Source of the DNA: Symbiodinium sp. CCMP2592
Lineage: Eukaryota; Sar; Dinophyceae; Suessiales; Symbiodiniaceae
DNA: 64,000 bases
NCBI GenBank assembly: GCA_905221615.1
Contig: CAJNDT010006187.1
Coordinates: forward strand, 62,001 to 126,000
Reading direction: 5' to 3'
How positions within the stretch are numbered: the stretch's first letter is position 1; every line of letters starts with the position of its first letter. Position numbers and translations under genes: made by a program. The notes beneath the pieces are model-generated. The model made no database searches, was not told where the DNA came from, and worked only from the letters and a program-made list of their open reading frames with translations. Below, piece by piece: positions 13,322-36,075 of the stretch.

Positions 13322-13323
13322 GC

Positions 13324-13376
<53 letters not shown>

Positions 13377-13402
13377 GCTACTGCTGCTGCTGCTACCACT
13401 GA
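13322..13402. repeat. (CTA)n microsatellite
   Basis: About 20 CTA units followed by CTGCTG units. It lies in what should be an intron of the left TIR-like gene copy. Confidence 0.9.
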
Positions 13403-13502
13403 TAACATGCAAATACCTTCAACAGTTGGAAGGTATCCCTGCGTGCCCTTGGCGAGCTTTGGCGGCGCTCTCCCGTGGACCTGCCGGAAGAGGCCGGCCC
13501 GA

Positions 13503-13550
13503 TTAGGGTTTGTGGTTCAGGTTTTTAGGGTTTGGGGTTTAGGTTTATCC
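13503..13550. repeat. Telomere-like TTTAGGG tract
   Basis: Imperfect units (ATTAGGG, TTTTTAGGG, TTTGGGGTTTAGG) sit directly before an exon of the left TIR-like gene copy. The final TTTAG could serve as its 3' splice site. Confidence 0.6.
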
Positions 13551-13559
13551 AAGGGCGTC

Positions 13560-15642: not shown

Positions 15643-15727
15643 TATATATAAGTATGTATGTATGTATGTATGTATGTATGTATGTATGTATGTATGTATG
15701 TATGTATGTATGTATGTATGTATGTAT
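15643..15727. repeat. (TGTA)n microsatellite
   Basis: About 20 perfect GTAT/TGTA units, ending about 45 bp outside the left end of the large element. Confidence 0.95.
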
Positions 15728-15767
15728 ATGTGTGCGCGCCATAAACTGCTGCTACGCAAAGCATGCT

Positions 15768-15772
15768 TCATT
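15768..15772. repeat. Target-site duplication, left copy (TCATT)
   Basis: TCATT lies directly outside the left terminal inverted repeat and recurs at 34,144-34,148 directly outside the right one, in the same orientation. A 5-bp match alone is weak; its placement at the exact ends of long inverted repeats is what makes it convincing. Confidence 0.7.
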
Positions 15773-15820
15773 TCATGGAGTAGGTGGGGGGGTCCTGGGG
15801 GGGGGGGTCCTTTGCTTATC
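15773..15820 (+). repeat. Left terminal inverted repeat
   Basis: Begins TCATGGAGTAGGTG, followed by seven G, TCCT, eleven G and TCCTTT, ending in CTTATC. The reverse complement of 34,096-34,143 matches it with three substitutions before position 40 and a one-base length difference near the inner end. The identical 7-G and 11-G run lengths are notable for such slippage-prone sequence. Confidence 0.82.
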
Positions 15821-16035
15821 ATTTTTTACAGGATAAGCAATGATTGGTATAAGCTGGGAGTAAGCCACGTATAAGGTCTTAGTAAGCACTTATCTTGGGT
15901 GTATGCGTTGCTTATATGATAAAGGCTTGATAAGCAACACTTTAAGACAACATAACGACTAGAGGCTTAACCATCAGCAAGTCGCGAGTATTCCTTACAT
16001 GTGGCTTATCCTTTCTGTCTGAAACTAATGTCCCA
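15815..16035. repeat. Left subterminal GATAAG/CTTATC cluster
   Basis: Many copies of CTTATC, GATAAG, TAAGC or ATAAGC in both orientations in about 220 bp. Comparable spacing occurs near the right end (33,983-34,102). Subterminal motif clusters are typical transposase-binding regions in large DNA transposons; that role is inferred here. Confidence 0.6.
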
Positions 16036-16044
16036 TAAGCGGCT

Positions 16045-16115
16045 TGGGTTTAGGGTTTAAGGTTTAGGGTTCTTGGGTTTCAAAGTTTAGGGTTTAAAGA
16101 GTTTTGGGCTATTCA
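16045..16115. repeat. Telomere-like TTTAGGG tract inside the element
   Basis: Several imperfect GGGTTTAGGGTTTAAGG units. A second, weaker tract lies at 16,640-16,692. Both are inside the left end of the large element, between the terminal repeat and the last exon. Confidence 0.6.
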
Positions 16116-16295
16116 GGTTATTCAGGTTTTCAGGGCACACACGTGCAAACATTTAAGGTTTATGGGTTTGGGGCTGAAGGTTCCGGGTTTTCGGATTGCA
16201 AAGCTCGGGAGTATTAGGGTTGAGGTGTGAGGGCACACACGTGCAAACACCCTTGGACAGCCAGCGAAGTTCGTTTCGATCCTGCACACACTTCG

Positions 16296-16613
16296 TCACT
16301 GCTTCCGCCGCTTCGCGGCTGGCTCTGCCGACACTTCCTCAGGAACACCGGCGGCCTTGGTTTTACGAGTCTGCCGCTTTGCGGCTGGCTCTGCCGACTC
16401 TTGCTCGCCGGCACCCCTGCCTCTACGACCTCTACCTCCTCTGCCTCTGGAAGAAGCCTTTGCCTTCGCATCGGCACCAGCAGCACCACTGCTAGCAGCA
16501 GCACCACTGCTAGCTGCCAACGCTGGCGCACTACTGCAAGTGGCCGCTGGTGGATCTGCGGGAGCTACATCGCGCTCACGCTCTTCACGCAGCCTCTCCA
16601 GTAGCTCCCGCAC
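16296..16613 (-). CDS. C-terminal exon with RG-rich and basic NLS-like tail
   Basis: The minus frame ends in the stop at 16,296. It begins with a charged helix (VRELLERLREERERD), then an Ala/Ser-rich linker, an RGRGGRGRRGRG tract, and two copies of SAEPAAKR, the second ending AAKRRKQ before the stop. The basic ends suggest nuclear import. This is the last coding piece before the left end of the element and is most simply the C-terminus of the large leftward gene. The splice connection to the exons at 16.9-18.2 kb is not resolved. Confidence 0.5.
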   Translation of the reverse strand: MRELLERLREERERDVAPADPPAATCSSAPALAASSGAAASSGAAGADAKAKASSRGRGGRGRRGRGAGEQESAEPAAKRQTRKTKAAGVPEEVSAEPAAKRRKQ

Positions 16614-16710
16614 TTGCTGACGTGATGGCCTTTGTAGGTTTCTGTGGTTCAGTGTTTCGGGTTCACGGGGTCTGGGGTTAAGGGTTTAGGGCCCAAGGTT
16701 ATCTTATAGG

Positions 16711-16847
16711 ATCCTTAAGGGAGGGTGGTTCAAGGGGGGAGGGTATAAGGAATCCTTAGGGGACTGTAAGGGAACCTTAGGGAGTACTAGAGAGAATTAG
16801 GGATCACTAGGCTATATACCCCCCTTGGACCCCCCTCCCTTAAGGAT
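16711..16847. repeat. Small foldback (MITE-like) sequence
   Basis: ATCCTTAAGGGAGGG at 16,711-16,725 is repeated inverted as CCCTCCCTTAAGGAT at 16,833-16,847, with partly matching sequence inward (CAAGGGGGG against CCCCCCTTGG). The interior repeats CCTTAGGG-like units. No clear target duplication is visible, so it may be a MITE or a local hairpin. It is nested inside the large element. Confidence 0.5.
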
Positions 16848-16940
16848 ACTACAATTATCTGGTAGACTGCAGGCTACACCTGAGATTAGCAAGCACATCA
16901 ATCAAGGTAACATCTGAATATTCTTGAACTGGTTCAGAAG

Positions 16941-18166
16941 TCAACACTGCACCACAAAGACACACCTGCCCATCCAGAAAGATCCGAGGGTCTGCTCTTC
17001 ACCAGGCTGGATGTGCTTGCCATACAGGAAATGCAAGGTCCAAATTTTCTCGACGACCTCCTGCAGTGCTTCTTCTTCACTCAGGTTGCGTTGGGCGCCG
17101 CCCCAGGTGCAGCATCTCGATCCCGATCCAAACCCGGCGGCACGGTCGACTCGGAAAGGGTATAACACTGATGTAAAAAACAGCAATAGGCTCAATAGGC
17201 GGTACGTGAAGCAGCGATGTTGCAACCAAGACACCTGGATAAAATGCCTGATACGTGCGCGCAACCGGATTGCGCTGCAGGTAGCACTCTCTCAGTTGGC
17301 CACGCCCAGGAAGCAGCTCATTCCTTGGCAAAGGCACATGTACATTTAGCTCGCGCATGGGAACGCATAACGTCCTACACTGTATGAGCCGGGAATCAAA
17401 CTGGCTGGAGTGAAATTTCTGCGGGGCTGGTTGGGTCCAGCACCCTCGCCTCGACGTTTCTTGATCTCAGCCTCAATCATGTGTTCATCCTTGATCTTCG
17501 AGGCCATCTGGCGAAGCCCCGAGAATTTTTGCTGGTTGTCCTGATCAAGGGCAAGAACTCCTGAAAGCACGTCTTCCGCAACGTCCTCTGACATTCTCAC
17601 CGACGTGGTGCCTAGGACACCGTTCAAGATCTTGGTGTGTTCAGGGCTTCCTTGCTCGAGGTCAGGAAATATGGCTGCCAGCAATGCCAAAGCTCGGTCA
17701 CGCTTGACGACGTTGCGTCGGCCGGCCTTGTTCAGCTTCCCAGTTGGTACTGGCTGCGAGGCATTGTTCGCCAGAGAGCATTTTTTGAGGGTTGGTACGT
17801 CCAAAAAACATTGGCCGGAACGAAGTGCGGCCTTGACGAGGGGCTCGATGGGGCTCGCTTGCTGTAGAAGGCAGCTGTGCTGCCGCTGTGCATGGGGGAC
17901 GCATGCAGGGTGCAGAACCTGCACCGTGCACGCCTTGAACTGCGTATCAGTCGCGTCGGCTGAGGTAGCCCACAGCCAATACGGCCGCTGAACCTCTCCC
18001 TCCTGCAGAGGAGGCAGGCGGAAGAGGAGGTTGCCATCGGGACCCTTCTGGATGTCGAGGGGGATACTCTGAGCTGCCCACTTGCGCCAGCCTAAGCACA
18101 AGTTTGCACCGTCCTCGTCAGCATTGAGTATGACCATGCCCTTCAGCAAGAACATACCTTAGAAGC
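16941..18166 (-). CDS. Exons of the large element-encoded protein (part 1)
   Basis: The largest exon covers about 17,346-18,166 and encodes around 265 residues, including GRRNVVKRDRALALLAAIFP, an acidic helical segment, and IKKRRGEGAGPNQPRR near its end. Downstream on the minus strand a frame at 16,945-17,150 holds LSEEEALQEVVEKIWTLHFL. I recall 'VVKRDRALALL.A.FP'-like segments in repeated Symbiodiniaceae proteins but cannot name the domain. Its place in the same strand and element as the methyltransferase gene suggests a transposition-related role. That is inference only. Confidence 0.6.
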
Positions 18167-18179
18167 CCAATATATGCTA

Positions 18180-19565
18180 TCAGCGAACAAAAGCCTTGAG
18201 TTTATGTATGGCTTGATTGCCGGGGCCTGCCCAGAACTTGTCCAAATCCTGGAAGTCTTCGGAATAGCATTTCGCCAGGGTCATTGTGGCAGCAGCCATC
18301 CTCATGTCGGCCAATGTTCCTGCTTTCCCCCACTTCTTGCTGACCTGCTTCGATAGAATAGGAAATCGACTCAGGATTGGGAAGTTTGGGAGGTTGAGGG
18401 TTCAAGGATTATTCGAAGTGGGGAGCCTGGTTGGCTAGGTATACTAGGATTCCAAATGACAAATTCAACTTTGTTGTGCTCCGTTGACTTGGAAGTAGAT
18501 CAGAGACCCTAGCCCTAGCCTGCTCCACGGAGTCCAGCTGCAAGTGGCTGGGAGGCGCTTGCGTTGCGCCGAAGTACAAGCCATATCTCTCCGATTTCAG
18601 GCGCTCCACTGTGCCATAGTCGGCCGCGGCGCAAGTGATGTGCTTGTATCCATTCTCACGTGTGGACTGGCAAGTTGTACAATAGAAAAACTTCGACCAC
18701 CTCAGCAGAAGAAACCGCGCGACATGGCATGGCACCGTATCGTGCGGACGTAGCGATGATGACAGGCACGCCTCAAGACCCTCAACCCTACAAGCACCCG
18801 TACCCGGGACTCAACACCCTAGCCGCCAGCCAAAGCCACTTGGACATGCGTAGGTTCCCTTTTTGGCTGCGAGCAGCCACGTGGTGAAGGTGTGCGAAGA
18901 CGTCTTCCGCCGCGTGCTTTGTGTTCGATGGTCCGCCGAAGCAGCTAAACGCGATGGTAAGCAGCTCGTCATCATCGGCCGCATACCCTGCGTTTCTGCA
19001 CGCTTGGAAAACCTCAAGCACCAACGGGCAACGATGAAACCAGACATCCTCCAGCAGTTCTCTTACGGCAGCACCGATGCTGTCGTCCTCGTCTCTGCCG
19101 GCTTCCAAGAAGCGGTGTGCGCGATCCAAGGCTCTGTCAAGCTCGCGTATGAGACGCATGCCTTCCTGCTGCGCTCCCTCGGAGGCAAAGATGCAGGCCA
19201 GGAGGAAGGGCAGACAGCTCCAGTACATTGCTTGTGACCACGCCCTGGCATGCACTGCGGTGTGTGCACGTGATGAGCAACTTGCCTAGTATCTTTCTTA
19301 GTAGGCTTAGCAGCTACCAGCGGCAGTCAGTCATGCGGTGAAGAACAGGCCTAGCCGAAGCCAGCTCAAGGATCACCTTCCATGCGTCCGCCAGCAGGTC
19401 TGCTTCCTCTTGGACCCATGCCAGTCGAGCACATGAGGCTGGGTCTGGAGAGGGCCAGAGTGTGATCCGCAGCTTCTGCAGGAAGGGCACGTTGTGTATC
19501 TTTCGCAAGGTTCGGTGTAGAGTGACATATCCACTCCCTTCAAATCGATCAGCTGTCCAGCGCAG
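18180..19565 (-). CDS. Exons of the large element-encoded protein (part 2)
   Basis: Four minus-strand frames read as protein. 19,318-19,565 (after a CCAG acceptor) contains RFEGSGYVTLHRTLRKIHNV. 18,800-19,230 contains ELLEDVWFHRCPLVLEVFQA and then NTKHAAEDVFAHLHHVAARS. About 18,465-18,715 contains FYCTTCQSTRENGYKHITC, a zinc-ribbon-like CxxC. About 18,190-18,350 contains KKWGKAGTLADMRMAAAT. The TKxxxExxF pattern resembles the region around the last acidic residue of some DDE transposases, but I cannot place the other catalytic acids. Borders and phases are approximate except at 19,565. Confidence 0.55.
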
Positions 19566-19689
19566 CTGGTGATCCTGTTAGCAACAGCAGCATCGCTGGC
19601 AATTAGTGATTGGTTACGAATCAGTGAGTAATGACTATTCAATTACACGGAGACTGCCCTAGAGGCCCTAGCATGTTGCCGTTGCCGTC

Positions 19690-21120
19690 CTGTCCACTCT
19701 TCTGTGCTTTGTTTGTCCGATAGAACTCCTTGCTGACCTCCTCCGTTGTCAGGGCTATCATCCGGATGCGCGACTGCAAGCGCCTGGCAAGCGCCCAGAA
19801 AGGAGGCAACGGAGGCACGTGGTTACATTGAGTTGAGGGCTGGATATGATGTTGAGTCCAAGGCTCCGGTCCTGCAGCATTTCTGCACTGAGTTGGACAT
19901 TGTTCGCAAACTTGGCCCTCCACTTTTGAAACTCCTTGGTCGTTGTGGGCTCCTCAGGCTCTTCATCGACGAAGTCAATCTTTTCTTCGGGAGGATCCTC
20001 GAGGTCTTTGTCCTGTTGTTCCTGCCACACAAGAGCGAGGCACTGACAGCACAGAAAGCCTAGTGCCTGCATCTCCAGCACCCAGCATTGAAGGACGCGG
20101 GGAGAAGGGTGGGGGGAGAGAGGGGGGGAGCAGTGGGGAAGGCCACCAGAAACCCCCTTATAGCTTACAGAGCCGTAACCCGAAAATAGCTTGACCTGAC
20201 AACACCTAATGATCAATGATCCCTGGACCCGGAATTTCCGCGAGGCTCGGCTGCCAAGTCTGCCATGATCTCGGCACTGACGGTCCACTCCGCGGCGAGT
20301 GTGCCGCAGCGCTCGGTTAGAGCAAACCACCCCTTTCCGCGAATCTTAGCTTGAGAGCAGGAAGTGCGAGGTCACACCTCCCCAACTGAGTTATGCGAAA
20401 CTGTAGACAACAGTGACGGCCGCGATCTTTAAGCTGACTAGCATTGATTGCTGCCATGAAGCGTACATTCCACGCTTCCGCGCGGCCTCGTGATCAGCCC
20501 ATGTCTCAATGAACCTAGGTACCTCATCCTCGTCGACTTCCTGGCTCTGGTCCAAGAGGAGCAATTCCGAAATCTCCAGCCATTTGTCCCTGTCGTGTCG
20601 ATGTTTCTGGATGTACTTCTGAGCAACCTCTTGCTTTGACAACCACGTGGCGCCCCCCTGGAACCTGGAAACAAGACAGAAACTCCACTGAGAATTCGTG
20701 CCCGGCCCTACGTGTTCAGTCGACAGTCTGCAGCCTTTCCCCCTAAGCAAACACCAGCAACATCAAAGTAACCGGCGTCACCTTATCAATGCCCAAGTGG
20801 CGGTCCGTGGGAAGTAGCGCTGAGGATCGTGGCCTTAAGCATGTTGATTGCTTGGCCTCCGCGAACCAAGGCATTTCCTGGCCGGACACATGGGAGAGGC
20901 GACAAGGCATCTGGGTAGGGGCTTGCGGATGAAGCGCTCGATTCATGACTTGCATTGCTTTGTGCTGTCGTGGTTTCGGCAATCGTTCCAGAGTCCATGG
21001 AGACAGTCTGGCTCGTAGAGTGCTCGCAGCTGGCTGGCCAGCAATTTCATGCTCTTGACGCCGACCTTCTCTTGATCGGCCACCTTGGCTATGGTGGACT
21101 CGTTTAGCATGCCAAAACAA
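19690..21120 (-). CDS. Exons of the large element-encoded protein (part 3)
   Basis: 19,827-20,021 is a clean 65-codon exon, phase 0 at both ends, after TGGCAG and before GTAACC; it is strongly acidic (DKDLEDPPEEKIDFVDEEPE). About 20,440-20,664 follows a TTTCCAG acceptor and contains GGATWLSKQEVAQKYIQKHR. About 19,690-19,790 contains MIALTTEEVSKEFYRTNKAQ. About 20,960-21,110 contains KVGVKSMKLLASQLRALYEP. The order is consistent with one leftward gene. No family recognised. Confidence 0.55.
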
Positions 21121-22014
21121 ATAGCTGAACAACCAGTATGAAGAGACAAGACACGCCCTTCAGCAGGGGGCGCTCTCGACCGTCTGGCGGCTGCAGCGGC
21201 ATGGTCTGTGCCGAGTACACGAGGTCTTTGTGCACAGCGAAGTGGGAAAGGTCACGGCCAATGCTGCTCTTCAAAGTTGTGTTGATTGCACGCAGCGTGA
21301 CCTGCGCAGGGTCTCTGCAAGTGTTGAAATGGAGAAGGTTAGGTAAGGCTGGGTATGATCGCAGAATTGCACAATGGAGCAGAGCACCATGCCTGAACGT
21401 TTCTCAAGTTGTGCGTGGTCTTCCTCACAACAGTCCCGGAGCCTGAAGCCGACCTTCATTGCAGCGTGATTACTTGGCGCCACACTTTAAGAACAAACGT
21501 GTGCAGTCTAGGGAAACGGCTCATCACTTCGCTTGGAGGCAACTGCCTGCGCCTGGCTGCTCTCAGCGTGCTTCGTCAGGGCCTAGGCAGGACGGGGAGC
21601 GATAGCTCTAGGAAGACTGTCGATGCTAGCAGCAGACTTAGGTGCACATGCAGCAGTGAGCAGCAATCGAAGCTGTGCCTGTTTTGCTCTCTGAAACGCA
21701 TGGACGGGTGGCAGGGCATCAGAGCCTGCCCCCGACGGTGCACCGGATCCCTACTGTGCAGGGCACGAACACACAACGACAGCACCCGGTAACTCAGTAA
21801 GTTGCAATGGAGTACGTGCGCATTACACTGCAGCCAGCTCAGTGCCACGGACAGCAAGGCGATGTGATGTAAACTAGTCGTGTGAGGCACTCAATCACAA
21901 AACGGTGCTCACTTCTGAACTCGGCAATCAGTCCGAGTCTGAAATTGGACATGGCAGGACCTTCGGGACGGGCACCGATGGCGCCGCGGCCTCGCACAGA
22001 AGTTAAGCTAGTAC
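21121..22014. other. Intron or spacer inside the element
   Basis: No frame on either strand is convincing; I see no repeat or RNA gene before the microsatellite that starts near 22,015. Confidence 0.4.
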
Positions 22015-22580
22015 TGCTGCTGCTGCTCTAGCTGTTGTTGCCTTTGCTGTGGCCGTTGCTGCTTCTGTTTGTCGTGGTTGTCCTGGTTGTGTTTGTGTTC
22101 TGTGTTGTGGTTGCTGCTGTAGACGATGGTGGTGGTGTCGTTGTAGTAGTAGTAGTAGTAGTCGTCGTCGTAGTAGTCGTAGTAGTAGTCGTCGTCGTAG
22201 TAGTAGTCGTAGTAGTAGTAGTAGTAGTAGTAGTACTACTAGTAGTAGTAGTAGTAGTAGTTGTTGTTGTTGTTGTTGCTGTTGTTGTCGCTGTGGTTGT
22301 TGTTGTTGTGGTTGTGGTTGTTGTGTTTGTGGCTGTGGTTGTGACATGTGGTTGTGGTTTTCGTGGTTGTGGTTGTGGTCGTGGTTGTGGTTGTGGCTAT
22401 GGTGATTGTTGTTGTTATTGTGGTTGTTTTGTTGTTGTTGTTGTTGTTGTTGCTGTTGCTGCTACTGCTGCTGCTGTTGTTGTTGATGGTGGTGGTGGCG
22501 GTGGTGGTGGTGGTGGTGGCGGTGGTGGCGGCGGTGCTGTTGCTAGTGACTTTGATTTCTTGGTGTTGGTGGTGCTTGTG

Positions 22581-22622
<42 letters not shown>

Positions 22623-22670
22623 ATGCGGTTGCTACTGTTGCTGCTGCTGGTGTTGTTGTTGTTCTTCTTC
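22015..22670. repeat. Compound GTA/GTT/GTG/GCT microsatellite
   Basis: About 650 bp of triplets: TGCTGC, GTAGTA with interspersed GTC, GTTGTT, GTGGTT, GGTGGT and finally (CTG)n at 22,586-22,622. It lies within a presumed intron of the leftward gene. Confidence 0.9.
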
Positions 22671-22916
22671 TTGCACTGGTTCCTGCGATGTGTAGTGGGC
22701 TTGGCGTCACGAACTAGGTTATAACTGCTTCCAAGACCCCAGCCCAAGCACCAACACAGACCTGCGCCCGTGTGTCCCAATTCTTTAACCGGGCTTCCGA
22801 ATTTGCCAATAGCCCTCCCCCATCCACATATCATATCCGAAGTGCCGCCTAAACCCAACATCTCACTGATCCATAGCCGCAACTCTCTAATCCCTACACC
22901 TCCCAATTCTAGCCCA

Positions 22917-23649
22917 CTATGTCGAGGGGAAGTATTGATTAAGGGTCGGTTCTCCTAGACTATAGTCTCTGGCCTTTAGCTGCTCCTCAGCCCGGGCCGT
23001 CTTAGGCGGCGGGCTGGTTCCGCTCCCAACAGCTGTAGCTGGCAGGCTCAGCACCGGCGCAGGCGAGCTCGCTTTGGACGGACCTGCTTCCGCAGGCACG
23101 GGTGCAGGGCTGGCTTTCTTCGGATTTGCCTGGACAGGGCAAGGTGGGCTCGCTTTAGCCAAGTTTCCCTGGCGGGCTCGTTGTGGAAGGATCTGCCTTC
23201 GTAGGCGGTGGCGGGCTGGGCACAACTGGGCTCGCTTTGGCTGGATCTGCCTGCACAGGCACCGGTGAGCTTTCCGGCTTCGGTGGGGCACCAGTGCTGG
23301 GATCTGGATTGACCTGCACAGGCACGGGTGAGCCTTCCTGCTTCGGTGGCAGGGCACCAGCGCTGGGATCTGGATTGACGGGCACGGGTGGGCTGGGCAC
23401 GGGTGTCAGCTGAGCAGGCGCGAGCAAGGTCCCGGGCACAACTGTGGTGAGCTGCACAGGAGCAGGCACGGCTTGGACGGGCGCGGGTGGCACAGCTGGG
23501 CTGGAAACCGTGTCCAGCTGCTCAGGAACCGGCGGCGGGGTGACAGGCTCCAGTGGCTTCACGGGCACGGGTGGGCCAGCGAGATTGCCGGGGCCCTCGG
23601 GTGTTGTGCCTGGCTTTTTCCCACCCGTCTCCTTGCTGGGCGTAGCCGC
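22917..23649 (-). CDS. Proline-rich exon with a reading-frame break
   Basis: After a TGCGTCAG acceptor the frame encodes a Pro/Val/Ala-rich segment with degenerate repeats (SPVPVQVNPDPSTGAPP, SPVPVQADPAKASP) and stops at about 23,155. The same style continues one base out of frame (LAKASPPCPVQANPKKASP) to a stop at 22,917, ending EPTLNQYFPST. The DNA shows an approximately 66-bp tandem repeat around 23,255-23,390. Either an unseen intron joins the frames or a one-base change broke the exon. The segment is probably disordered. Confidence 0.45.
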
Positions 23650-23876
23650 CTGACGCAAACAACACATAACAGCAGCTCTGGCGTCTAGTCTAGAACATGT
23701 ATTATATAGAAGAGACATGTGCGGATCTTTTCTTGCCTTTGGGAACGAGCTCAAGTCTAGATTGCAATGAGATGGAAGCTGTGACAGGCAGCCAGACTAT
23801 GCAGTAGTGCTGCTGCAGAAACGCAGAACCCCCCCTAGCACTACTACACGCAGGCGCCGTGCAAAATTGGAACACT

Positions 23877-24521
23877 TCAGCTGCGCTTCATGTCGGAATA
23901 GCATCGCTTGCCCTGGCTTGTGCAGAGGTTGTTGTCTTGGCTTTCAACGATGCTGACCTGCTCTGCAGGAAGAGGATCCACTACTGGAACACCTGGCTCA
24001 CTGCAAGGGCCCGGCACAAGTGCCTTCTGGCGAAGATACTCCTTGGCATCATCCTTGGATCCTAGCTCCTCGGCCAGCTCCTCTAGAGTTTCCTGGCTCA
24101 AGGACTTAATGCAACGTCGTTTGCAGGGGCGCGAAGGAGGTTCAGGAGTGTCGAGACCCTTGTCAGAGCAACCCGTCGGAGGACTGATTACCACGGCCTT
24201 GCGTGTTTGAGGTGTCATCGGTGGTGAGATCATAGACATCCGAAGCTTCTGAGGTGTCATGGGCGGAGACACCAAGCTTTGAGTGCAGCACGAGCCATCA
24301 CCCGCAGTGCAGCTGGTGGCTGGCGAGGGCCTCACTGTGTCGGCTGCATCTGCTCCCACACCTTGCTCGGCGGCAACACTGCGGCAATGGACTAGCATGG
24401 CCGCCATTGCGGCTGCCAGCTGTTCATCCGCTGACCCTGTGCTGCGCGCTGGAGATGCCGCGCTAGATGTGGCTTGAAGAGTCACCATGGACGCGTGGGA
24501 GGATTTGCCAGGCGAGCTCTG
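23877..24521 (-). CDS. Ser/Thr-Pro-rich exon with SPPMTPQ repeats
   Basis: The minus frame after a TTCGCAG acceptor (24,521) encodes about 215 residues. It contains SPPMTPQ twice and a third SPPTG, spaced about 16 residues apart, then a basic patch RPCKRRCIKSLS, then an acidic helix LEELAEELGSKDDAKEYLRQ. The SP/TP motifs resemble proline-directed kinase sites and the basic patch could be an NLS; both are inference. The upstream intron holds the GATAAG minisatellite. Confidence 0.55.
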   Translation of the reverse strand, partial: QSSPGKSSHASMVTLQATSSAASPARSTGSADEQLAAAMAAMLVHCRSVAAEQGVGADAADTVRPSPATSCTAGDGSCCTQSLVSPPMTPQKLRMSMISPPMTPQTRKAVVISPPTGCSDKGLDTPEPPSRPCKRRCIKSLSQETLEELAEELGSKDDAKEYLRQKALVPGPCSEPGVPVVDPLPAEQVSIVESQDNNLCTSQGKRCYSDMKRS

Positions 24522-24611
24522 CGAAGAATGCATGGCACGCGTGCGTGCTGTACAACAAGCACAGTCTACAAAGAGATGAGCTTGGCTGCGCCTTGTGCCC
24601 GAGAGGTCTGT

Positions 24612-25540
24612 CTGTCACTGGCGCATAGGCCCCGATAAGCTCCGCAACACTCCCTGAAACAAGCTCCGGACAGGCATCGGATAAGCCTAGGATAAGCCCA
24701 GGACAAGCCCAGGATAAGCCTAGGACAAGGCTAGGATAAGCCCCAAAACCTTCAAAAGCCCTAAGGGAAAGCTCTGCCGAAGCCCTGGATAGCCCCCGGA
24801 TAAGCCTAGGATAAGCCTAGGATAAGCCCAGGATAAGCCTAGGATAAGCCTAGGATAAGCCCAGGATAGGCCCCAAAACCTTCAACAGCCCTAGGGAAAG
24901 CCTTGGATAAGCCTAGGATAAGCCTAGGCTAAGCCCAAAACCTTGGAAAACCCTAGGATAAGCCTAGGATAACCCCCGGATAGGCACCGGATAAGCCTAG
25001 GATAAGCCTAGGATAACCCCCGGATAGGCACCGGATAAGCCTAGGATAAGCCTAGGATAAGCCCAGGATAAGCCTAGGATAAGGCTAGGATAGGCCCAAA
25101 AACCTTCAAAAGCCTAGGGAAAGCTCTGCCGAAGCCCCGGATAAGCCTAGGATAAGGCTAGGATAAGCCTGGGATAAGCCCAGGATAAGCCTAGGATAAG
25201 CCTAGGATAAGCCTAGGATAAGCCCCAAAACCTTCAAAAGCCCTATGGATAAGCCTAGGATAAGCCTCGGCTAAGCCCAAAACCTTGAAAAACACTAGGA
25301 TAAGCCAAGGATAAGCTCCGGACAGGCACCGGATAGGCACCGGATAAGCCTAGGACAAGCCTAGGATAACGCTAGGACAAGCCCGAAACCTTGAAAAAAC
25401 ACTGGGGAAAGCTCTTCACGAAGCCCTGGATAGCCCCAGAAGAAGCCCCGGATGGGTCCCGGCTAAGGCTGGGATAAAAGCAGGACAAGGCTAGGATAAG
25501 CCCAAAACCTTGACAATACCCCCGGATACTTCCAAAAAAA
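24612..25540. repeat. GATAAGCCTAG minisatellite
   Basis: About 900 bp of tandem units, mostly an 11-mer, GATAAGCCTAG, with CCCAG and AGGCTAG variants, interrupted every 100-200 bp by a longer spacer (CCCAAAACCTT then AAAGCCCTAGGGAAAGC). It shares GATAAG with both ends of the large element. It lies in an intron of the leftward gene. Confidence 0.92.
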
Positions 25541-25559
25541 TGAAGAAGCACTCGAGCAC

Positions 25560-25890
25560 AGAAAGGGCCATCACCCTGCTTACAGCCTACTTACAGTCCC
25601 ACTAGAGTTCTTTTTTGGCTATGCAGGTTTATTGTTAGGAGCCCATCGTAGTGGATAACAACCCAACTCTTCTGCAAGCCTTCAGCAGGTCAGACATTTT
25701 AGAGCCCCGAGAAAGCCCTCATGTGCACACCATGACAATCACTGAGTACACCCAGTCTCGCACAAACAAGCAAAGACATGACGGCTCAAGAGCGAATGGG
25801 TTATCAAATAGGACTGCCACACTGAACACATATAGTATCTCCCCCCTCTGCTTGTATCAGTCACATGATAGGTAACCCTATGTTCCAGTC
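25560..25890. other. Intron sequence
   Basis: No supported gene between the minisatellite and the exon near 25.9 kb; the single minus ORF here overlaps that exon and runs on without a motif. Confidence 0.4.
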
Positions 25891-25904
25891 GCAGGGATCC
25901 GGCC

Positions 25905-26290
25905 TGCCCCATGATGTTGTTCACCCACATAGCCTTGCAGGACTTGCTCGGGCTGGCCACATAGTACTGGTTGTAGCGCTTGTGTCCGTCCTAGGGAATG
26001 GGTTGTTCCATTCATTGCGACGCAGGGCACTCACTAGCATCAGGATACTAGCTTTAAGGCTGGAGTGCGCTGTCCGCACCAAGGCACGCGAGTCTCTCGC
26101 TGCAACACCCAGTCGGAGGCAGTCGTGGGAAGCGTCCGGCTTTCCTTTGTTTTCGTGCAAGTGAGGACGTGCACCCCGGCTGTCGCGTCGAACTTGATTG
26201 CGTAGTCCTGCCACGGGGCACACATTGCACGGAAGATGCCTGAAACCTGATTGCTCTTGCCAGTCCTCTGGATCTTCCTCGGATGAAGAG
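25905..26290 (-). CDS. Two exons of the large element-encoded protein
   Basis: About 26,046-26,290 encodes SNQVSGIFRAMCAPWQDYAI followed by KFDATAGVHVLTCTKTKES. About 25,905-25,991, after a CCCTAG acceptor, encodes HKRYNQYYVASPSKSCKAMW and ends before a possible GC donor (CAG|GCCGGA). Both read as well-composed protein; no domain is recognised. Confidence 0.5.
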
Positions 26291-26864
26291 GGCGCGTCGC
26301 AGTGCGGGGCAGGAGCCTAGGCTAGGCGGGCACATGCTAAATTACTAAACACGACAAGACCAGTTCTATATCTTCGAGGACATGCAGGTCACCAGGTGCG
26401 TAAGTAAGTACCATTGCGCAACCACTGCTTTCATACTACTGTCGTGGTTTGCTGGCTCTGTCCGCGAGGGCAAGAGCTACAGCTACGCTGGATCCACCCC
26501 CTCGGCTTTCACACCCCGAGCCCAGTCCCAGAAGAAGTCCCTGCGTCTTCCAAGTGACCTTGTCTCTGACACCAGGCGCAGCATTCTTAGTGCCGGCTGG
26601 CGGTGGCAGCAAGGGCGCAGGGACGCTCGGCGGAGAGGCATTGAGACTGAGAGTCTCGATGCTTGGCACACCTGCAGATAAAGTTTTGCGGCGCTCGGCT
26701 TTGTGGCTTCAGGGTTCAGGGTTGTGTTCCTTTGTGAGTATCTTTGTCTGCTTCTTGGTTTCAGGCTACTGGAGCATTAACCTGGCTATGTACTTACAGC
26801 TACCAGCTATAAGCTTTGGAATAGGAGCTGTCGTTCTAAGAAACTACGGGATCGGCTGTCCAGG

Positions 26865-26968
26865 AGAAATGTGTGTGTGTGTGTGTGTGTCTCTGTGTGT
26901 GTGTGTGTGTGTGTGGGTGTGGGTGTGGGGGTGTGGGGGTGTGGGGGTGTGGGGGTGTGGGGGTACGA
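26865..26968. repeat. (GT)n and (GGGTGT)n tract
   Basis: Alternating GT followed by GTGGGG units, in an intron of the leftward gene. A second such tract lies at 27,385-27,618. Confidence 0.9.
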
Positions 26969-27131
26969 CGACGAGGACCACTACTAGTACTCAAGTAAAA
27001 TAGTAACATGTGGGTGGAAAACCTTCTGCAACCGAACGGAGCGCCCTTAACTAGCATCCTCTTTTGGCCAGGCAGGGGCCGAGCATCATGTGCATCAGCG
27101 GGTCTTTTTGGGGTTCAAACCTCGTCAAATT

Positions 27132-27164
27132 CAAGTCCAACGGATTTTAAATCCGTTGGACTTG
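27132..27164. repeat. Perfect 16-bp inverted repeat (palindrome)
   Basis: CAAGTCCAACGGATTT at 27,132-27,147 is followed, after a single T, by its exact reverse complement at 27,149-27,164. It would form a tight 16-bp hairpin or cruciform. It lies between the two GT tracts. Confidence 0.8.
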
Positions 27165-27171
27165 TACATGG

Positions 27172-27332
27172 GTGCGATTTGTTGCCGTTTTTGGGCCTCC
27201 AAGTGGTGTCCCAGTGCTAAGAAGTATGATTTGTTGCCGTTGGTTTGGCCTCGCAGCGGTGCCCAGTGCTACGAAGTGCGAGTTGTCGCAGATGTATTTC
27301 GCATCCAAGCAGTGCCCCAGTGCTAAGATCGG
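27172..27332. repeat. Three tandem copies of a 50-60 bp unit
   Basis: Three units each carry GATTTGTTGCCG or a variant, then a GCCTC-AG-GGTG segment, then CCCAGTGCTAAGAAGT or a variant. Similarity falls from copy 1 to copy 3. Confidence 0.6.
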
Positions 27333-27384
27333 CGCTGGCGCCGTGCCCCACTCATTCCCTCATTCCCTGCTAAAGACCGCCCAG

Positions 27385-27618
27385 GTGGGGGTGTGGGGGT
27401 GTGGGTGTGTGTGTGGGGGTGTGTGTGGGGGTGTGGGTGTGGGTGTGGGTGTGGGAGTGTAGGGGTGTGGGGGTGTGGGGGTGTGGGGGTGTGGGGGTGT
27501 GGGGGTGTGGGTTTGGTGGGTGTGTGTGGGTGTGTGGGTGTGTGGGTGTGTGGGTGTGTGGGTGTGTGGGTGTGTGGGTGTGTGGGTGTGTGGGTGTGTG
27601 TGTGTGTGTGTGTGTGTT
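27385..27618. repeat. (GGGTGT)n / (GT)n tract
   Basis: About 230 bp of GTGTGGG units ending in (GT)n. It directly follows, in the direction of transcription, an exon of the leftward gene. The His/Thr/Pro frames over it are artefacts. Confidence 0.9.
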
Positions 27619-27629
27619 TGGGCTTGGAA

Positions 27630-29231
27630 TGCCTGGAGGTGTCGCCCCCAAGCCAGGCAGCGTCGTCGTGGCCAACGTTCCCGGTGCCAACAGGCTAGCA
27701 AGCACAGGAGCCTGTTCTGCTGCAGGCGGGGCTGGTGCAGGCACTAGCCTCTCCACTGCAGGGAAACCTGATGCCGCAGATGCTTGCTCGGCTCCTCTGC
27801 TGACCACGGTGTCTGCAGGAGACGTCGCTGGAGGCATGAATGACAGGTGGAAGGATTGTGCCTGCGGAGACAGCAGGTGCCTTATCTGGACCTTGGCGTA
27901 TACTTCAGCTGGCAGCGTTGTCGTATTCACGCACGGGGCAAGCACAGTGTCGCAGTAGAGCACCTGCGGGGTGATGCGATTCAGACCTCGGTGTGCTTTT
28001 TCGCTAGCATACATGTTTCACCGGTGTAACACACTAGGACCACACTGATTGTCGCACATCTGCTTGAATCTTTGAGTCCTCTGCTCGACTCAGCAACGAC
28101 ATATGTACGCCCGGAGCCCTTGTCCAGGCGCAGCGTAAAGGTCTCCCGGTACGGGTCGGGAAGCCGGGCACTAATGTCAATCTCCGTCATGCTGTTGTCA
28201 AGCATCCAGTGACCATTGTGGCTGCTGAGGCGGTACTGGTCCTGGCCGGACTGCATCGCTTTGGACACCCAAAGCAAAGCCTCCGCGGTGAGTCCCTTTC
28301 CAGGCTCGCCACGGCGGATGTATTCTTTGGCGAGGTCTGCCGCCGTCGTGACGGAGTTCTCTTTCCTGCTAGCCAACATGGGAGGACCGAGCACCAAGAC
28401 TCAAGCACGCGAAAGTCCACCAAACATGACTGCGCAGTGCTGCTGAGGTGCTCGGCTGGGGACAAACGTTGGTTGGGGAGCTTGCCCCAGTACACAAAGC
28501 ACATGGCTTGCAGTGTGCTCGTGTCGAGGGAGTCCAGAAAGGACCGATTGGCATAGGGCCCACCAGAGACCTCCAACATGTCCTTCATGATGTAGTCCTG
28601 ATGGAAAACACAGTCACAAACAACAACAGATAAATACAGTCTGGTACTGTGCATTGTTGGCGTGGGAGCAGACAGCATGGACAACACTTGAGGCCCCAAC
28701 GACAACTTGAGACCAGACGCTCGCGTAGATGGTGTGCCCGCCTCCCTTCTTATTGTCCGTCTGGTCCTCTCCCGCCTTGGCCTTGCGGCGGCGCTTCTTG
28801 CCACCACCGTCTGTCGATGTCTCCATCGGTGCTCCTGTTGGTGCTGGAGTCAGGCCAGCAGGAAGTCCCATGAAACCACCGGGCATGGAGGCTCCCGCTG
28901 AGGCGGCATGATGTGCTGCCAGCATCCCGGGATACATAGGCATCACCGAGCCAGGCATGTTCGAGGAACCGGCCATCACCGAGCCAGGCATGTTCGAAGA
29001 ACCGGCGGCCGACATCATAGCCATGGGCGCTGGGTGGTGCAGTGGGCTTGGCAAAGCCATCCCAGGCATGCTGGCCACGGGTCCCGTGGGGCTCGTAGCC
29101 GTACTGCCGCATGGAACCAGACCTGCAGCATTGGATGCAGGGGCTGCCGTGCCACCCAGTGGCATCTGCATCGGATGGCCACCTGGAGGCAGTGGCATTG
29201 GCTGGCCAGCGTTTCCGCGAAGTGGTTCCAT
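27630..29231 (-). CDS. N-terminal exons of the large element-encoded protein
   Basis: A candidate start ATG at 29,231 follows a CTATAAG acceptor-like site by 15 bases, as in a spliced-leader gene. The first exon (29,231 to about 28,690) is Met/Pro/Gly-rich with a repeated SSNMPGSVM and a basic NLS-like KKRRRKAK. Next is 28,407-28,597 (after ATCAG; includes DSLDTSTLQAMCFVYWGKL), spliced to an exon from 28,378 (RKENSVTTAADLAKEYIRRG) that runs to about 28,045. Another exon runs from about 27,985 (VLYCDTVLAPCVNTTTLP) to about 27,630. The stop of the methyltransferase gene lies 320 bp upstream, so this is probably a separate downstream gene. Function unknown. Confidence 0.6.
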
Positions 29232-29552
29232 GCTACCGACTACGTCCTTATAGACAGTCCTACAGCAAAAGATCTCGTCTGTCGGACACGGACACAGGTA
29301 CCCTACATGGTGCCCAGGACATGTTATCGGCAGCACACAAGAAGCCTTTGCGGAATCCGCTCTTTCCGGAAGTCCCCCGGCACTGTTGGTGCGCGCAACG
29401 AGATTCCCGTGCATCTGCCCTGGTCCCAAACTTCCCACCATAACACTGTTCTAGTAAAGGCCTCTGTGCCTGCAGAAACTGCGACTACAGCATTGATCCA
29501 ACACCGAAACCCCAGAGACTATGCCCCAAGCCCCAGCCAGGGCTCCGAACAC

Positions 29553-32500
29553 CTAGGCTGGCCCGGGAACTTCTGCTACCGGTGAAAAGCAGCTAAGTGC
29601 CACCATCTGTACAAGGCCGGCAACTTGCAACGCCATGGCGTTTCCAGCTAGCTGCGAGGCACGCTTCACATCCATGGCCTGTAGCACAGGCAGTCCTGCA
29701 GCTTGTCCCACAGGACTGCGTACTGGAAAGGTGAGAGCTGTCAGCCTCAGCGACATTGTAAGAGTTTCACACACATATACATATACATATAGAAAGAGAG
29801 AGGTAAGTCCACAGGATCGGTTTCAAGTTTTCGGTGGATGTGCAAGCAGCTCTGCCAGACGTGCCAAGTCACTTCTCTAGATTCGTGAGCCACCGCTTCT
29901 CGCATGGAAACCAGTACTTAGCACTCCCAGCATTGCGGCGGAACGTAGGAATCTTCCTTGACGTGGCGCTCCACGTGCACCACTCGGCACTGTCTCCAAG
30001 GAAGAACACCAGGTCACGGTCGGATTCTGCTGGGGTTCCAAACATCTCCTCGTACTTCCTGCTCAGCTTCTCCACCACTTCACGCTCTCGTGCACTCAGC
30101 AGGTATGTAAGGTCGCTCTGGTCGGGCTGGTAAAGTTTCTTCCCGAGTCCTGCAGTTGCGCAGCAAGCAGAGTTCGAAAACAAAGTACTTCTTACTTGTT
30201 CCGCTGAACTTAAACTCATCTGGGCAAGGTGCGCGCAGCTTCCAGAGCTTCGCACTGAACTTCCAGACTGCTTGCTGTGAGGTAGTCCCACGGTCTGGTA
30301 AAGAATCGCAATCGCAACTCCCGTGCGACCTTCTCGTAGATGTCTTGTGGATTCGCCAGCACGCGATACATCTTCGTGACGACGACAACATAAACCCTAG
30401 AGCGAGCTACGCCAGCATGACCAACGTCCTCCAGATCCACATAGAGCGGGTAGATGTTGTAGGCGTCAGCAAGCAAGGTCCGGAGTATGTCTACATGGAA
30501 ATCCTTTGCAAAGGTCACAGTCACAAACGGCAAGGGCATTAGTTCCTCATGTCTATGTGCACGCAGAAAGACCAGCAAGACCATACAAACGAACAAGGAC
30601 GAGGTTCTGGAGTGTTCTCAACAATGCCAAGAGGGATAGCGAATCTGCGCATTCGTGCGGCCCACACGGCAAAGATTGGCCCGGTAGGACCTTCCTCAAA
30701 CCGCCTGCCCTTGTTGATGCGGCTGTTGTCCGTGCAAGGCAAGCCAGACATATCAAAATCAACAAACGGCACAGGACAGTGCCGACCATGTGTGTGGCAG
30801 TATGCCTGCTGGGCCGCTTGCGCTTGAAACACCACTGCACACTTTTCCTTGAAGCCTCAGTCGCAACAGGCAGCCGCAGCTCTTGGCTGATTGGAACCGT
30901 AGCAGGTGCAACATCAAGGAAGCAGGCTCGTTGCTGACACAGAACTGGTTCCTGGACACATCCGGTGCGCCGCTGGCACCAAGTCCAGGACGTCTTCAAA
31001 GAGGCATGGCGGTGCCGAGTTCCTTTGCAAGGTCTCCTCCACCCATTGGTGATTGTCATAGAGGCACTGATGGCAGGCCTTTTCTTTCTCCTCAATGACT
31101 CGCCACTGCACATGACAAACCACACCAAGTCGATCTGATTTCCAGACATGACATCTTAGCCCCACACCCATGCTGCAAGAGATCGGAAATCCACGCGAAA
31201 GGGCAGGTACCCGGAGTCGTTTACCACCTTGCAGACGTGCGCCAAAGCCATCTCGGCCGTGTACACGCCGGAGCACATGCTGGAGCATGTGCGTGTGGAC
31301 TTCCACAACGACTCCTGCAGCATCGCACTGCAACGTGAGCGACTTGAAGCCACATGGTCCGTGCGCACCTCCAACTGTTTGCCCAGTGCCGACTGAAGTA
31401 TTTGCCATGCATCCTGAGGTCCCGTAAGCGCTGTGCTTGGAAGACCAATTCACTCCCCTTGCAGCAAAGTAGCCACCAGAGAGCTGGAGGCAGCAATCAC
31501 AGGAGCTGGAAGTGAGGCTTCCTCGCATAATGATGAGTCCCAGCATATGTGGCTAGCCGCGGCTAGCCCTGTCTTGTCCAGTGGCTGTCGAGTCTAGTGA
31601 AAATGGACGTGATGACACCCCCCCAAATAACGATGTCCTGCTGCTGCCTTGATCGTCGAGTTGACATATCGGTCTCCGTCACGTAAGATGTGGAGACCAC
31701 CGTGCGAGCACGCTTCGCCGACATTGACATGGCTTCGCAAAACTCTACACAAGCATGCACCGCACACAATGCCTGATGCCATATTCGTTGCTACGACCCC
31801 TAGCCATAGCAAGTGCACACGCTTGTTGCAGCAATGACTTGGAACCGCGTCAGCGGCACTTCGCATACAAAACAATGACCAACAGAAGCTCAAACACCTC
31901 CCGGCTGAACTGTTGAGCACCGCACCAGCGGAGGAGCAAAACCACCGAGGGATTTCCATGGGCCTGCAAGCGTGTCAAATGCGGAACGATCAGATCCACT
32001 CTAATCAGAATATCTCATACTGTTTATGAGGACCACACAGAAAATCCAGAAGACTTCGGTGGGAACTTTGGCAATGTTGGAGCCGTCGAAGACAATCTGG
32101 CAACATAAAGAAAACCATGGTGACCACGGGTAAACAGGTGAGGAATCTAAGTCTGGAACGTGAAACACATGCTCCTCCGCGAACTCCGCCCGCATTCGCT
32201 TTGCGTAAGTCACCTGCTAGAGACATGACCTATATTACATTGACGACATGCACCGACCAACGCAGACCGCGGCAGCAGTCAAGGTACCATCTCGCGCTGT
32301 GAAAATTCACATGGATGAAGGGGCCACTGGCCCAACGCCCGACTGATCAAAAACTCCTGCCAAGGAGGCACATGCTGACCCAGTAAAATTGTAGTTTGTC
32401 ACAACACAACGGCCTTCCCGTCACGCAACTTCCGCAAACTTTCCAAGAAGCAGCTGATGGGGATTTTGCGGTGGGCATGATGACGGACTTGCGAAGGAGG

Positions 32501-33969
32501 AATGCACAGCTGTAGACCCCGTTGGTCCTTGGCGCGGGATGCGCAACACGCACAAGGAAACCCTCACGGCAAGTGAACCCAAACCAGCCGAACGACTAAA
32601 GCCTTCGCGGCTTGCGCAAGTAGGCTTGTGGCCACAGATCGCAAAAGTTTCACATCCTCATGAACGTCCTCGGGATCGTCCTTGTACCATTGCCTTAGGA
32701 ATGAGGCGGCTAGTATTACAGTATGGAGTGCAATGCAATGGCATAATGTCTTCATGTAAGATGAGACATGTAAGCAACACGGCAAGATCAGGTTTAAAAA
32801 AAAAGGCTGGCAGGAAACCTGCTGAATGCAAAGAGAACCACGTCTGCCAGGTGTGGTGTGTGATGCAAGCTTTTCACACACAACCCGTCAGCCATGTCCT
32901 GAGTCGTTGACATCTAAGAACGTCTGATGTTCAAAATTCTAAAGACAGTGTCGCAGTGTCGCACACCAAGGCTTACAAGCCCTCAGATTCAGCAAAGTAG
33001 CCGTCTGCCGACACCACATGTCCAGCAGACGACGTTTCCGCGGACAATCTGCTCCCCAAAGAATGTTGCCGGCAAAGGTCCCGTCTCTGTTTGGCACAAA
33101 CTGGCGAGGGGCAAGCCATTGTAGCTCCCAGACAACAACTGTCCAGGAGTGTTCTCTGCAAAGCATGGATACCAAATCCCTGAAAAAAACTGTGCGCTTG
33201 CTTGACCGTGACCGCCCGCTTCTCAGAATCTGCTATCATCCAGGCTAAGCTAGCAATTAGCACGGAGGTGTGAACTGTTCGCTCCGGCATGCGCCCCAGC
33301 TCACCACGCATCCTGTAAGGGAGCTCCTCGGGCACGGGCATTCCCGGCCAAATCTTGGCATGCCATTCCGCAATCTGGACTTGTGTTTGGGGCTTGTAGA
33401 ACTTCTTCTTCAAGCTCTTGTTCCGATCGGATGCGTTTGCATCAGTTTTTTCATACTCGATGTATATGAAACGGAGAACATATGGCATCGCCCATTGCAG
33501 TTGCACTCCCTGCAGGGTGACATGGGCCAGGGAAGAAGAATGCACGCATACAGATGCACCGCACGGCACACACACACACACGCTTGCAGTTACTAACACG
33601 CTCCAAAGCAATCTCAACAACACATGTGTCTCGGCCTGCACTTGCCACACGGGCACTCTTTGGCCAAGAATCACAAGCTCACCTGGACTACGGATTACCA
33701 GCATCTACTCGAAGAGGACTCACGACTCAAGATGCCAAAACAAAACTCAGGCATCAGCGCTCTTGCAGTATCTGCACCGGTTCTGTGTCCATGGCGGATC
33801 AACGCTGCATCTGCTAGCTCGGGTCAAAGATCTGGGACTTGTGTTTAGAATCACAGCGCCACTATTTAACAGTATGTATGAAACACGGAAATGGACTACG
33901 CATCGTCCACGCTACCTTCTGCGTTGTGCGCATGACGCACTCGAGCTCTTGCAGCTGCCTGTGCCTCAT
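29553..33969 (-). CDS. Cytosine-5 DNA methyltransferase-like protein
   Basis: The candidate start at 33,969 opens an 18-codon exon (33,916-33,969) before GTAGCG. Further exons: 33,305-33,509, 33,015-33,179, about 32,640-32,702, about 30,960-31,460, about 30,830-30,587, 30,221-30,503, 29,873-30,149, and a last one from about 29,720 to the stop at 29,553. The last four agree in phase; the intron after 30,221 appears to use a GA donor. The catalytic exon has FDMSGLPCTDNS (motif IV, Pro-Cys at 30,734-30,739) and IVENTPE (motif VI). Later come GVARSRVYVVV (motif VIII) and RASQLAGNAM (motif X). C5 methyltransferases transfer methyl from SAM to cytosine through that Cys. I did not find a classical FxGxG motif I. 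The long N-terminal part is unrecognised. It is carried by the mobile element. Confidence 0.72.
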
Positions 33970-33982
33970 GTCTAAAATGCTG

Positions 33983-34102
33983 AGCTTATCCGAGGCTTAT
34001 CCTCAATTGCAACTGTCCCACACCTAACCATGACTTATCCTTAGCTTACCCTCAATTTATCCACATAAAATACACGCTTTCAAGCTTTAAGCTTTGGATA
34101 AG
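33983..34102. repeat. Right subterminal GATAAG/CTTATC cluster
   Basis: Five CTTATC or TTTATCC motifs and a terminal GATAAG occur between the right terminal repeat and the methyltransferase start codon. In the direction of that gene they lie in its first 150 bp upstream, so they could serve transposition, transcription or both. Confidence 0.6.
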
Positions 34103-34143
34103 GAAGGGCCCCCCCCCCCGGGACCCCCCCACCTACTTCATGA
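34096..34143 (-). repeat. Right terminal inverted repeat
   Basis: Read on the minus strand it begins TCATGAAGTAGGTG, then seven G, TCCC, eleven G and CCCTT. It is the partner of 15,773-15,820. Confidence 0.82.
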
Positions 34144-34148
34144 TCATT
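34144..34148. repeat. Target-site duplication, right copy (TCATT)
   Basis: Directly follows the right terminal repeat and matches 15,768-15,772 in sequence and orientation. Confidence 0.7.
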
Positions 34149-34209
34149 GCCACACTACATCCAGCACGAAGCCATAACTGCCGACAGTGCTAACCACCCC
34201 ACAAGAACG

Positions 34210-34900: not shown

Positions 34901-34989
34901 CAGGAGCTGAGCTACGAGTCTCTAAGCCACTAAGCCAGCATTGATCCTGTTTCTCCTGTTCCTCTCTTGCGGAAAGGGCCGCCGGCACT

Positions 34990-35962: not shown

Positions 35963-35997
<35 letters not shown>

Positions 35998-36034
35998 GCT
36001 ACTGCTACTGCTACTGCTACTGCTACTGCTACTG

Positions 36035-36075
<41 letters not shown>

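Follow-up and report, generated by a model that had tools for sequence, protein, structure and literature searches.

A probable family of giant, intron-rich DNA transposons with a cytosine methyltransferase gene in Symbiodinium

Does an 18.4-kb block of split genes, one of them for a DNA methyltransferase (DNMT), that lies between two related genes of a dinoflagellate represent a mobile element, and, if so, which of its proteins moves it and in what capacity is the methyltransferase there? The question is raised by a stretch of 64,000 nucleotides from Symbiodinium sp. CCMP2592 (positions 62,001 to 126,000 of contig CAJNDT010006187.1, here C5325:62,001-126,000), hereafter the window, for which an initial annotation had proposed a cargo-bearing transposon. 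We searched the contigs of the same 1.1-Gb genome, designated here by C and a number, for copies of the block. Positions 15,773-34,143 of the window very probably represent, in full length, one member of a Symbiodinium family of giant (18-19 kb) DNA transposons with terminal inverted repeats (TIRs), for which a possible mechanism of movement is outlined below. The family appears to consist of giant, intron-rich TIR transposons not described before, with the methyltransferase belonging to their core equipment. Our confidence is high that the family is mobile, moderate as to which protein moves it, and low as to the role of methylation.

Ends of the element and their occurrence elsewhere in the genome

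The 18.4-kb element is bounded by inverted repeats, found by repeat search, whose arms at 15773-15812 (left, plus strand; the 3' end of the element in gene orientation) and 34104-34143 (right, minus strand; the 5' end) are complementary at 37 of 40 positions and are separated by 18,291 nt. Runs of 7 and 11 G/C bases are present at each end. Directly outside the repeats, at the outer edges, TCATT can be read at 15768-15772 and again at 34144-34148, forming the left and right target-site duplication (TSD). The matching repeats with their 7- and 11-base G runs and the duplication at the exact outer edges had both been described in the initial annotation, and both stand.

As a control for chance, random pairs of 1.5-kb blocks of the window were compared, and 3 of 300 pairs reached at least 37/40. 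Taken alone, the inverted repeat of the window is thus suggestive, and what settles the matter is the copies with the same tip elsewhere. The search for further copies of the ends, proposed in the initial annotation, found them at other sites (C788, C179, C2291 and C2335). These ends have the tip TCATG[G/A]AGT..., the G-runs and the GATAAGC motifs, and differ in flanking DNA. On C788, a left-end copy is 98.1% identical over 738 aligned bp, and its homology sets in precisely at 15,773, the tip base. This fragment has one end only, with an inner break at a GCAGCAG run and with flanks unlike those of the window. The C179 and C2291 regions are 99.4-99.5% identical up to the tip, which is of the same type as in the window (poly-C, then CCACTCCATGA), and their flanks diverge beyond it. 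On C2335, the one end identified has its tip at 60,294, accompanied by a motif cluster and located 1.7 kb beyond the downstream gene discussed below. Inverted repeats, a duplication of fixed length (5 bp) and copies that share an exact end at unrelated sites are general features of TIR transposons, and all three are found here.

In searches by pattern, the tip alone has 15 exact matches, compared with 9 for the same pattern reversed, and eight of the 15 are accompanied by a subterminal GATAAGC cluster; the seven without such a cluster (C544, C935, C999, C1768, C2791, C2902, C3779) were set aside as chance. The tip combined with YTTATC is listed in 15 rows, which represent 13 places, and its control in 4 rows; nine of the 13 places are ends of the family (two each on C5325 and C179, one each on C788, C2291, C2335, C4989 and C4993). 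Matches on C446 and C657 lack the G-runs and were set aside, and two more, C5235:374,221 and C5257:33,241, could be further element ends. With one mismatch allowed in the tip, 632 matches were obtained against 318 in the control, and these were not used as evidence. Among viral contigs, the exact tip has no match. Ends without internal genes, an observation that the initial annotation held to be damaging, do occur twice, in the C788 fragment and on C4993, a contig without a protein match in either of the two protein searches of the genome; we read both as partial copies.

The second two-ended copy is on C179, where CTCTT stands directly before a 5'-type tip at 66,281 and again directly after a 3'-type tip at 114,264. 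The TSD is therefore 5 bp long at both two-ended copies, TCATT in the window and CTCTT on C179. The 48 kb between the C179 tips display a forward-reverse-forward repetition: 69,184-77,439 is the same as 97,745-106,000 at 99.98%, and 85,774-90,000 and 81,129-76,903 are identical in reverse complement, with a gap of 100 N at 85,674-85,773. This is probably a fold-back of the assembly, and once it is discounted the single copy measures 19,423 bp, with genes and array in the same order as in the window element. In the reverse arm, one stretch of 1.75 kb shows a difference of 0.6%, which would make a real rearrangement, instead of an artefact, possible.

Might the block then be nothing but ordinary host genes between chance repeats, or a product of the assembly? 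G-rich tips, the three random pairs in 300 that equal the repeat score, and the fold-backs that the assembly contains (C179) would all suit such an explanation. It is nevertheless highly improbable in view of the same tips and subterminal motifs at other loci, of homology that ends exactly at the tip within different flanks, and of the 5-bp flanking matches at two loci.

A methyltransferase gene and a candidate transposase gene

At least 29 collinear protein segments on the minus strand, from 33.7 to 16.9 kb, are common to the window element and C179 at E<0.02 (minus-strand frames were compared, and a few weak rows that broke the order or fell into a second frame were excluded). Their identity is about 30-70%. 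At the DNA level, blastn at E<=1e-5 aligns, above 40 bp, only the internal array and one 44-bp stretch. Conserved proteins in diverged DNA are the pattern expected of old copies under selection on the protein. The closely similar C179 and C2291 copies differ in the exons of the downstream gene by 4 changes at 2284 nonsynonymous sites and 6 at 680 synonymous sites, and by 0.3% outside the exons; with so few changes, and with a synonymous rate above the non-exon rate, their support for selection is weak. The initial annotation confined the coding exons to one strand. This is supported, short of proof, since only minus-strand frames were compared with C179: the homolog matches listed (10 of 30 proteins) are all on the minus strand, none of the 30 proteins matched outside the element, and the plus strand of the element has no Pfam match in whole-frame scans.

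The upstream of the two main genes, at 29601-31317 on the minus strand, comprises six conserved segments (31317-31168, 31093-30974, 30856-30608, 30506-30225, 30168-29872 and 29747-29601), recognised from homologs, profile and comparison with C179. They contain GLPC, ENT, RSR and GNA motifs and together reach from the N-terminal SMCSG-type motif of the family to its GNA motif. C5 cytosine methyltransferases have PC, ENV-like, RxR and GN motifs in this order, and the same order is observed in the homolog alignment and in the window segments. The joined exons match 22 proteins, and those with a named organism are all from dinoflagellates (Symbiodinium, Durusdinium, Polarella, Effrenium); a database protein of Symbiodinium sp. 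CCMP2592 matches 69% of the length of the joined exons at 97% identity. The profile of ten homologs matches M.HhaI with E 1.9e-6, and PF00145 is matched by four of the ten at E<=1 (best E 5.8e-5; one homolog scores 21.4 bits, just under the curated cut-off of 22 bits). The window exons alone have no match in Pfam, nor with phmmer in the PDB, and the homolog profile is needed for the assignment. On these sequence grounds, the upstream gene is a C5 cytosine methyltransferase.

Methyltransferase genes of dinoflagellates are known from long interspersed nuclear elements (LINEs) and from DIRS elements, as SymbioLINE-Dnmt and SymbioDIRS-Dnmt3 of Symbiodinium (PMC5890265). Our element resembles these retrotransposons as a many-copy mobile element of Symbiodinium with a DNMT, and C788, which retains only the 3' end of the gene array, could be taken for a 5'-truncated insert of an element like SymbioLINE-Dnmt. 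Reverse transcriptase, however, which SymbioLINE-type elements carry in intronless frames, was not found in our whole-frame scans. In contrast to SymbioLINE-Dnmt and SymbioDIRS-Dnmt3, with their reverse transcriptase and intronless DNMT (PMC5890265), the window element has many introns and inverted repeats at both ends, and C179 is a two-ended copy; a retrotransposon is, in our judgement, extremely improbable. Elsewhere in the genome there are near-identical frames of 393-404 amino acids (e.g. C1112, C5052, C557), with about 27% identity to the methyltransferase query, that may be LINE-borne DNMTs.

The downstream gene, a candidate transposase gene at 16977-21440 on the minus strand, consists of 15 conserved segments recognised by comparison with C179 and with homologs P0023-P0026: 21440-21390, 21304-21143, 21089-20979, 20890-20798, 20669-20457, 20371-20243, 20090-19860, 19785-19642, 19568-19332, 19246-18839, 18702-18517, 18347-18225, 18158-17436, 17328-17236 and 17162-16977 (these are limits of alignment, not splice sites). 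An open frame at 16299-16685, on the same strand and similar by eye to the C-terminus of P0023, is a probable basic C-terminal exon. Homologs come from Symbiodinium CCMP2456 (P0023, 53%), S. necroappetens (P0024, 42%) and S. pilosum (P0026), in addition to P0025 (43%); the protein database searches scored 7,998 and then 7,996 candidates, and the latter search added few homologs. The alignment contains the motif VADQEKVG...LHGLWND (20979-21089, minus strand), present also in distant members of the family, which is a possible catalytic acidic motif. On 8 of the 22 other contigs examined, D[QE]E is followed by WND, and a ninth, C5256, has DQE with WNV in place of WND; this pattern was drawn up after the window and C179 had been seen, flanks of 1.5 kb may miss the motif, and two spurious matches were ignored. 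Further on, a [ST]K...E[DS] motif is common to six aligned members. The conserved acids of the downstream protein are candidates for the catalytic acids of a DDE-type enzyme, and the protein itself is the best transposase candidate of the element.

No Pfam family fits the downstream homologs. Domains of hAT, MuDR, piggyBac, CACTA, Harbinger, mariner and KDZ transposases were not found at E<=0.1 in the six whole frames, or at E<=1 in the joined exons and homologs. The whole-frame scan missed the methyltransferase too, so its negatives are weak for genes split into short exons. A whole-frame match to PFF1_TM (E 0.0044) is weak, with 17 bits against a cut-off of 32.3.

That the encoded proteins lack a recognised domain of known transposases leaves room for a mobile element whose enzyme has its gene elsewhere or in the upstream exons (33.7-31.9 kb), with the downstream protein as an accessory; the upstream segments are, indeed, also conserved in C179. 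This arrangement seems rather unlikely to us. The D[QE]E...WND pattern kept on eight other contigs and the TK...E of the six aligned members point to the downstream protein, although they do not prove catalysis, and the last open frame of its gene adjoins the tip.

An endogenous virus or a Polinton-like element, integrated with terminal repeats, would also be compatible with a size of 18-19 kb, TIRs and short duplications, and in the dinoflagellate Oxyrrhis polinton-like viruses have been reported in endogenized form (PMC12721341). Such an origin is quite improbable for a block with many short conserved segments on one strand and with organism-named matches exclusively in dinoflagellates; polymerase (PolB), capsid, ATPase and integrase domains were absent from the whole-frame scans, a weak negative for exon-split genes.

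How regularly does the methyltransferase accompany the candidate transposase of this DNA transposon? Searching the genome with P0024 gave 63 downstream-gene matches (best 53 of 167 candidates scored), and the methyltransferase query P0011 gave 117 (best 111 of 194 candidates scored); they form 36 and 83 clusters, respectively. Upstream of 34 of the 36 downstream-gene clusters, on the strand of the cluster itself, there is a methyltransferase at a distance of 5.9 to 37.7 kb, with 33 of the 34 pairs within 23.2 kb and a median of 9.7 kb. These are raw counts: both fold-back arms of C179 and near-identical pairs of contigs, which are maybe duplicates or haplotypes, are included, so that independent events are fewer, and P0011 also covers part of an exon past the methyltransferase, so that the distances for C4101 and C5326 come out too short. 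The two clusters without a linked methyltransferase are on C513 and C5250. The reverse arrangement, downstream or on the opposite strand, is seen only on C179 itself and in two neighbouring pairs on C5197. Of the methyltransferase clusters, 49 of the 83 are unlinked; among them are a large group of the near-identical frames with about 27% identity and C4989, a contig with a tip of the family. Linkage at 34 of 36 clusters makes the methyltransferase a regular partner of the candidate transposase gene, and the term cargo, used in the initial annotation, is too weak for it. The arrangement suggests an enzyme that regularly belongs to the element family and was not picked up by chance.

The widest spacing belongs to C2291, where the methyltransferase and candidate transposase parts, within 528,080-571,128, are 37.7 kb apart. 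The homology to C179 breaks next to the position of the array, and the two observations together suggest a nested insertion or a rearrangement.

Motifs, proposed mechanism and genomic setting

GATAAGC or its complement GCTTATC occurs 42 times in the window, and 39 of the occurrences belong to the element, with 4 in its leftmost 500 bp, 2 in its rightmost 500 bp and 33 in an array at 24.6-25.6 kb. The motif counts define a left (15813-16272) and a right (33644-34103) subterminal zone; the internal array, found by repeat search as well as by motif count, extends over 24600-25560 and has an 11-bp unit containing GGATAAGCC. On C179, motif clusters are present at both ends, and an array occupies the same position in the gene order. 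Motifs shared by both tips are typical of transposase binding sites, and for the conserved internal array we propose a regulatory role.

Movement of the element might proceed as follows. The downstream protein would act as the transposase, bind the GGATAAGC motifs near both tips, make staggered cuts 5 bp apart, and move the element as DNA. Less certainly, the methyltransferase may modify the DNA of the element itself, at the tips, in the internal array or in a newly inserted copy, and this methylation might adjust binding of the transposase, timing of excision or silencing by the host. The internal array, likewise less certainly, could be a second binding platform, or a decoy that regulates transposition.

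Several observations weigh against taking 15,773-34,143 for a complete transposon copy. Both ends are shown for two copies only, the window and C179, and the two-ended reading of C179 crosses the fold-back and the N gap; the flanks of the C179 copy, CTCTTGGCACTCTT on the left and CTCTTGGCAC on the right, are a local near-repeat, so that the CTCTT match is less independent than it appears. Strict tips were recognised at 9 places, and most of the 36 downstream-gene clusters are without demonstrated tips. On C4989 there are a tip and methyltransferase matches and no downstream-gene match, and the 5' end of the C2291 copy was looked for at 573,701-574,900, where the alignment gave no rows, which we take as no match. 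No transposase domain was detected by Pfam in the element, be it in six whole frames, in hand-joined exons or in homologs, and the AlphaFold2 model of P0024, built from 8 sequences, has a mean predicted local distance difference test score (pLDDT) of 45.7 and is useless.

The initial proposal of a DNA transposon of unknown superfamily with a cytosine methyltransferase is nonetheless borne out by the copies with the same tip at other sites and by the second two-ended copy, on C179. A broader proposal, which has in our opinion an even chance of being correct, is that these elements constitute a new superfamily among the giant DNA transposons of eukaryotes, with a long history and much diversity in dinoflagellates. 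The methyltransferase that they encode would be obligate to transposition or self-regulation, acting together with an unrecognised transposase on the GGATAAGC repeats at the tips and in the conserved array.

The remaining conserved segments, known from the comparison of the window with C179, are all on the minus strand: one at 25901-25981 (KRYNQYYVASPSKSCKAMWV), two between the methyltransferase and the array (27805-28367), and five upstream of the methyltransferase (31905-33683), belonging to the same gene or to a separate one. A long stretch of trinucleotide repeats (22,006-22,721) belongs to the element and lies a short way upstream of the candidate transposase gene. Near the left end, a 36-nt inverted repeat (89%; 16,704-16,739 and 16,819-16,854, with a 79-nt loop) is possibly a nested small element or a hairpin. 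A GTAT microsatellite occupies 15,656-15,728, just left of the insertion point.

The element is flanked by tandem paralogs on the strand opposite to its own genes. Positions 13790-14184 and 35152-35546 are 82% identical over 404 aligned bases, and further collinear matches connect 12930-15163 with 34651-37357. This position is consistent with insertion into an intergenic gap. The initial annotation had placed two tandem TIR-domain-like genes 0.6 kb apart before the insertion; tandem paralogy is confirmed, the nearest matched parts would be about 1.1 kb apart if the element were excised, a spacing that does not reproduce the 0.6 kb, and the TIR-domain assignment is unconfirmed. The paralogs display an FLSHTW motif, which we take to be linked to TIR domains, and their whole-frame translations (all three plus frames on the left, two of three on the right) have no Pfam match at E<=0.01.

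Relation to known elements and significance

In their large size and accessory genes, the elements recall Starships and Teratorn, which use different transposases; Teratorn, in contrast, measures 180 kb. The 5-bp TSD and TCATG tips differ from the tips and TSDs typical of hAT, MuDR, piggyBac, CACTA, Harbinger, mariner and KDZ elements. The TSD is 8 bp in Zisupton, 7 bp in Kyakuja and 5 bp in the hAT5 group (PMC12730594), so that its length does not set our element apart from hAT5.

DNMT-bearing DNA transposons in marine viruses are mentioned in PMC5890265, and Mariner-1_OLpv is a virus-integrated mariner that encodes a transposase, an EcoRII-like endonuclease and a C5 methylase (PMC3627910). 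Like the element described here, Mariner-1_OLpv is a DNA transposon with a C5 cytosine methylase; it is viral and has three proteins, whereas our element is nuclear, intron-rich and about 18-19 kb long, with no mariner or restriction-enzyme domain found in whole-frame Pfam scans. Fungal DNA transposons of several described superfamilies (Kyakuja, Dileera, Zisupton, hAT, EnSpm, Harbinger and others) bear TET/JBP genes (PMC12730594). They, too, carry a gene that acts on methylcytosine, but theirs is an eraser, while the Symbiodinium element carries a writer, and its candidate transposase matched none of the superfamilies in Pfam. We recognised no DNMT-bearing cut-and-paste transposon of a dinoflagellate in the open-access literature, as represented by titles and the openings of abstracts.

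DNA methylation normally silences transposons. In this family, the methyltransferase gene has apparently been kept for so long that the copies lost similarity at the DNA level, while the protein stayed conserved, as did its position next to the candidate transposase. The known capture of DNMT genes by dinoflagellate retrotransposons would also extend to the other class of mobile element, and the downstream protein is a candidate for an unrecognised lineage of transposases in poorly annotated genomes. The family would allow a direct test of whether a cut-and-paste element uses cytosine methylation for its own movement.

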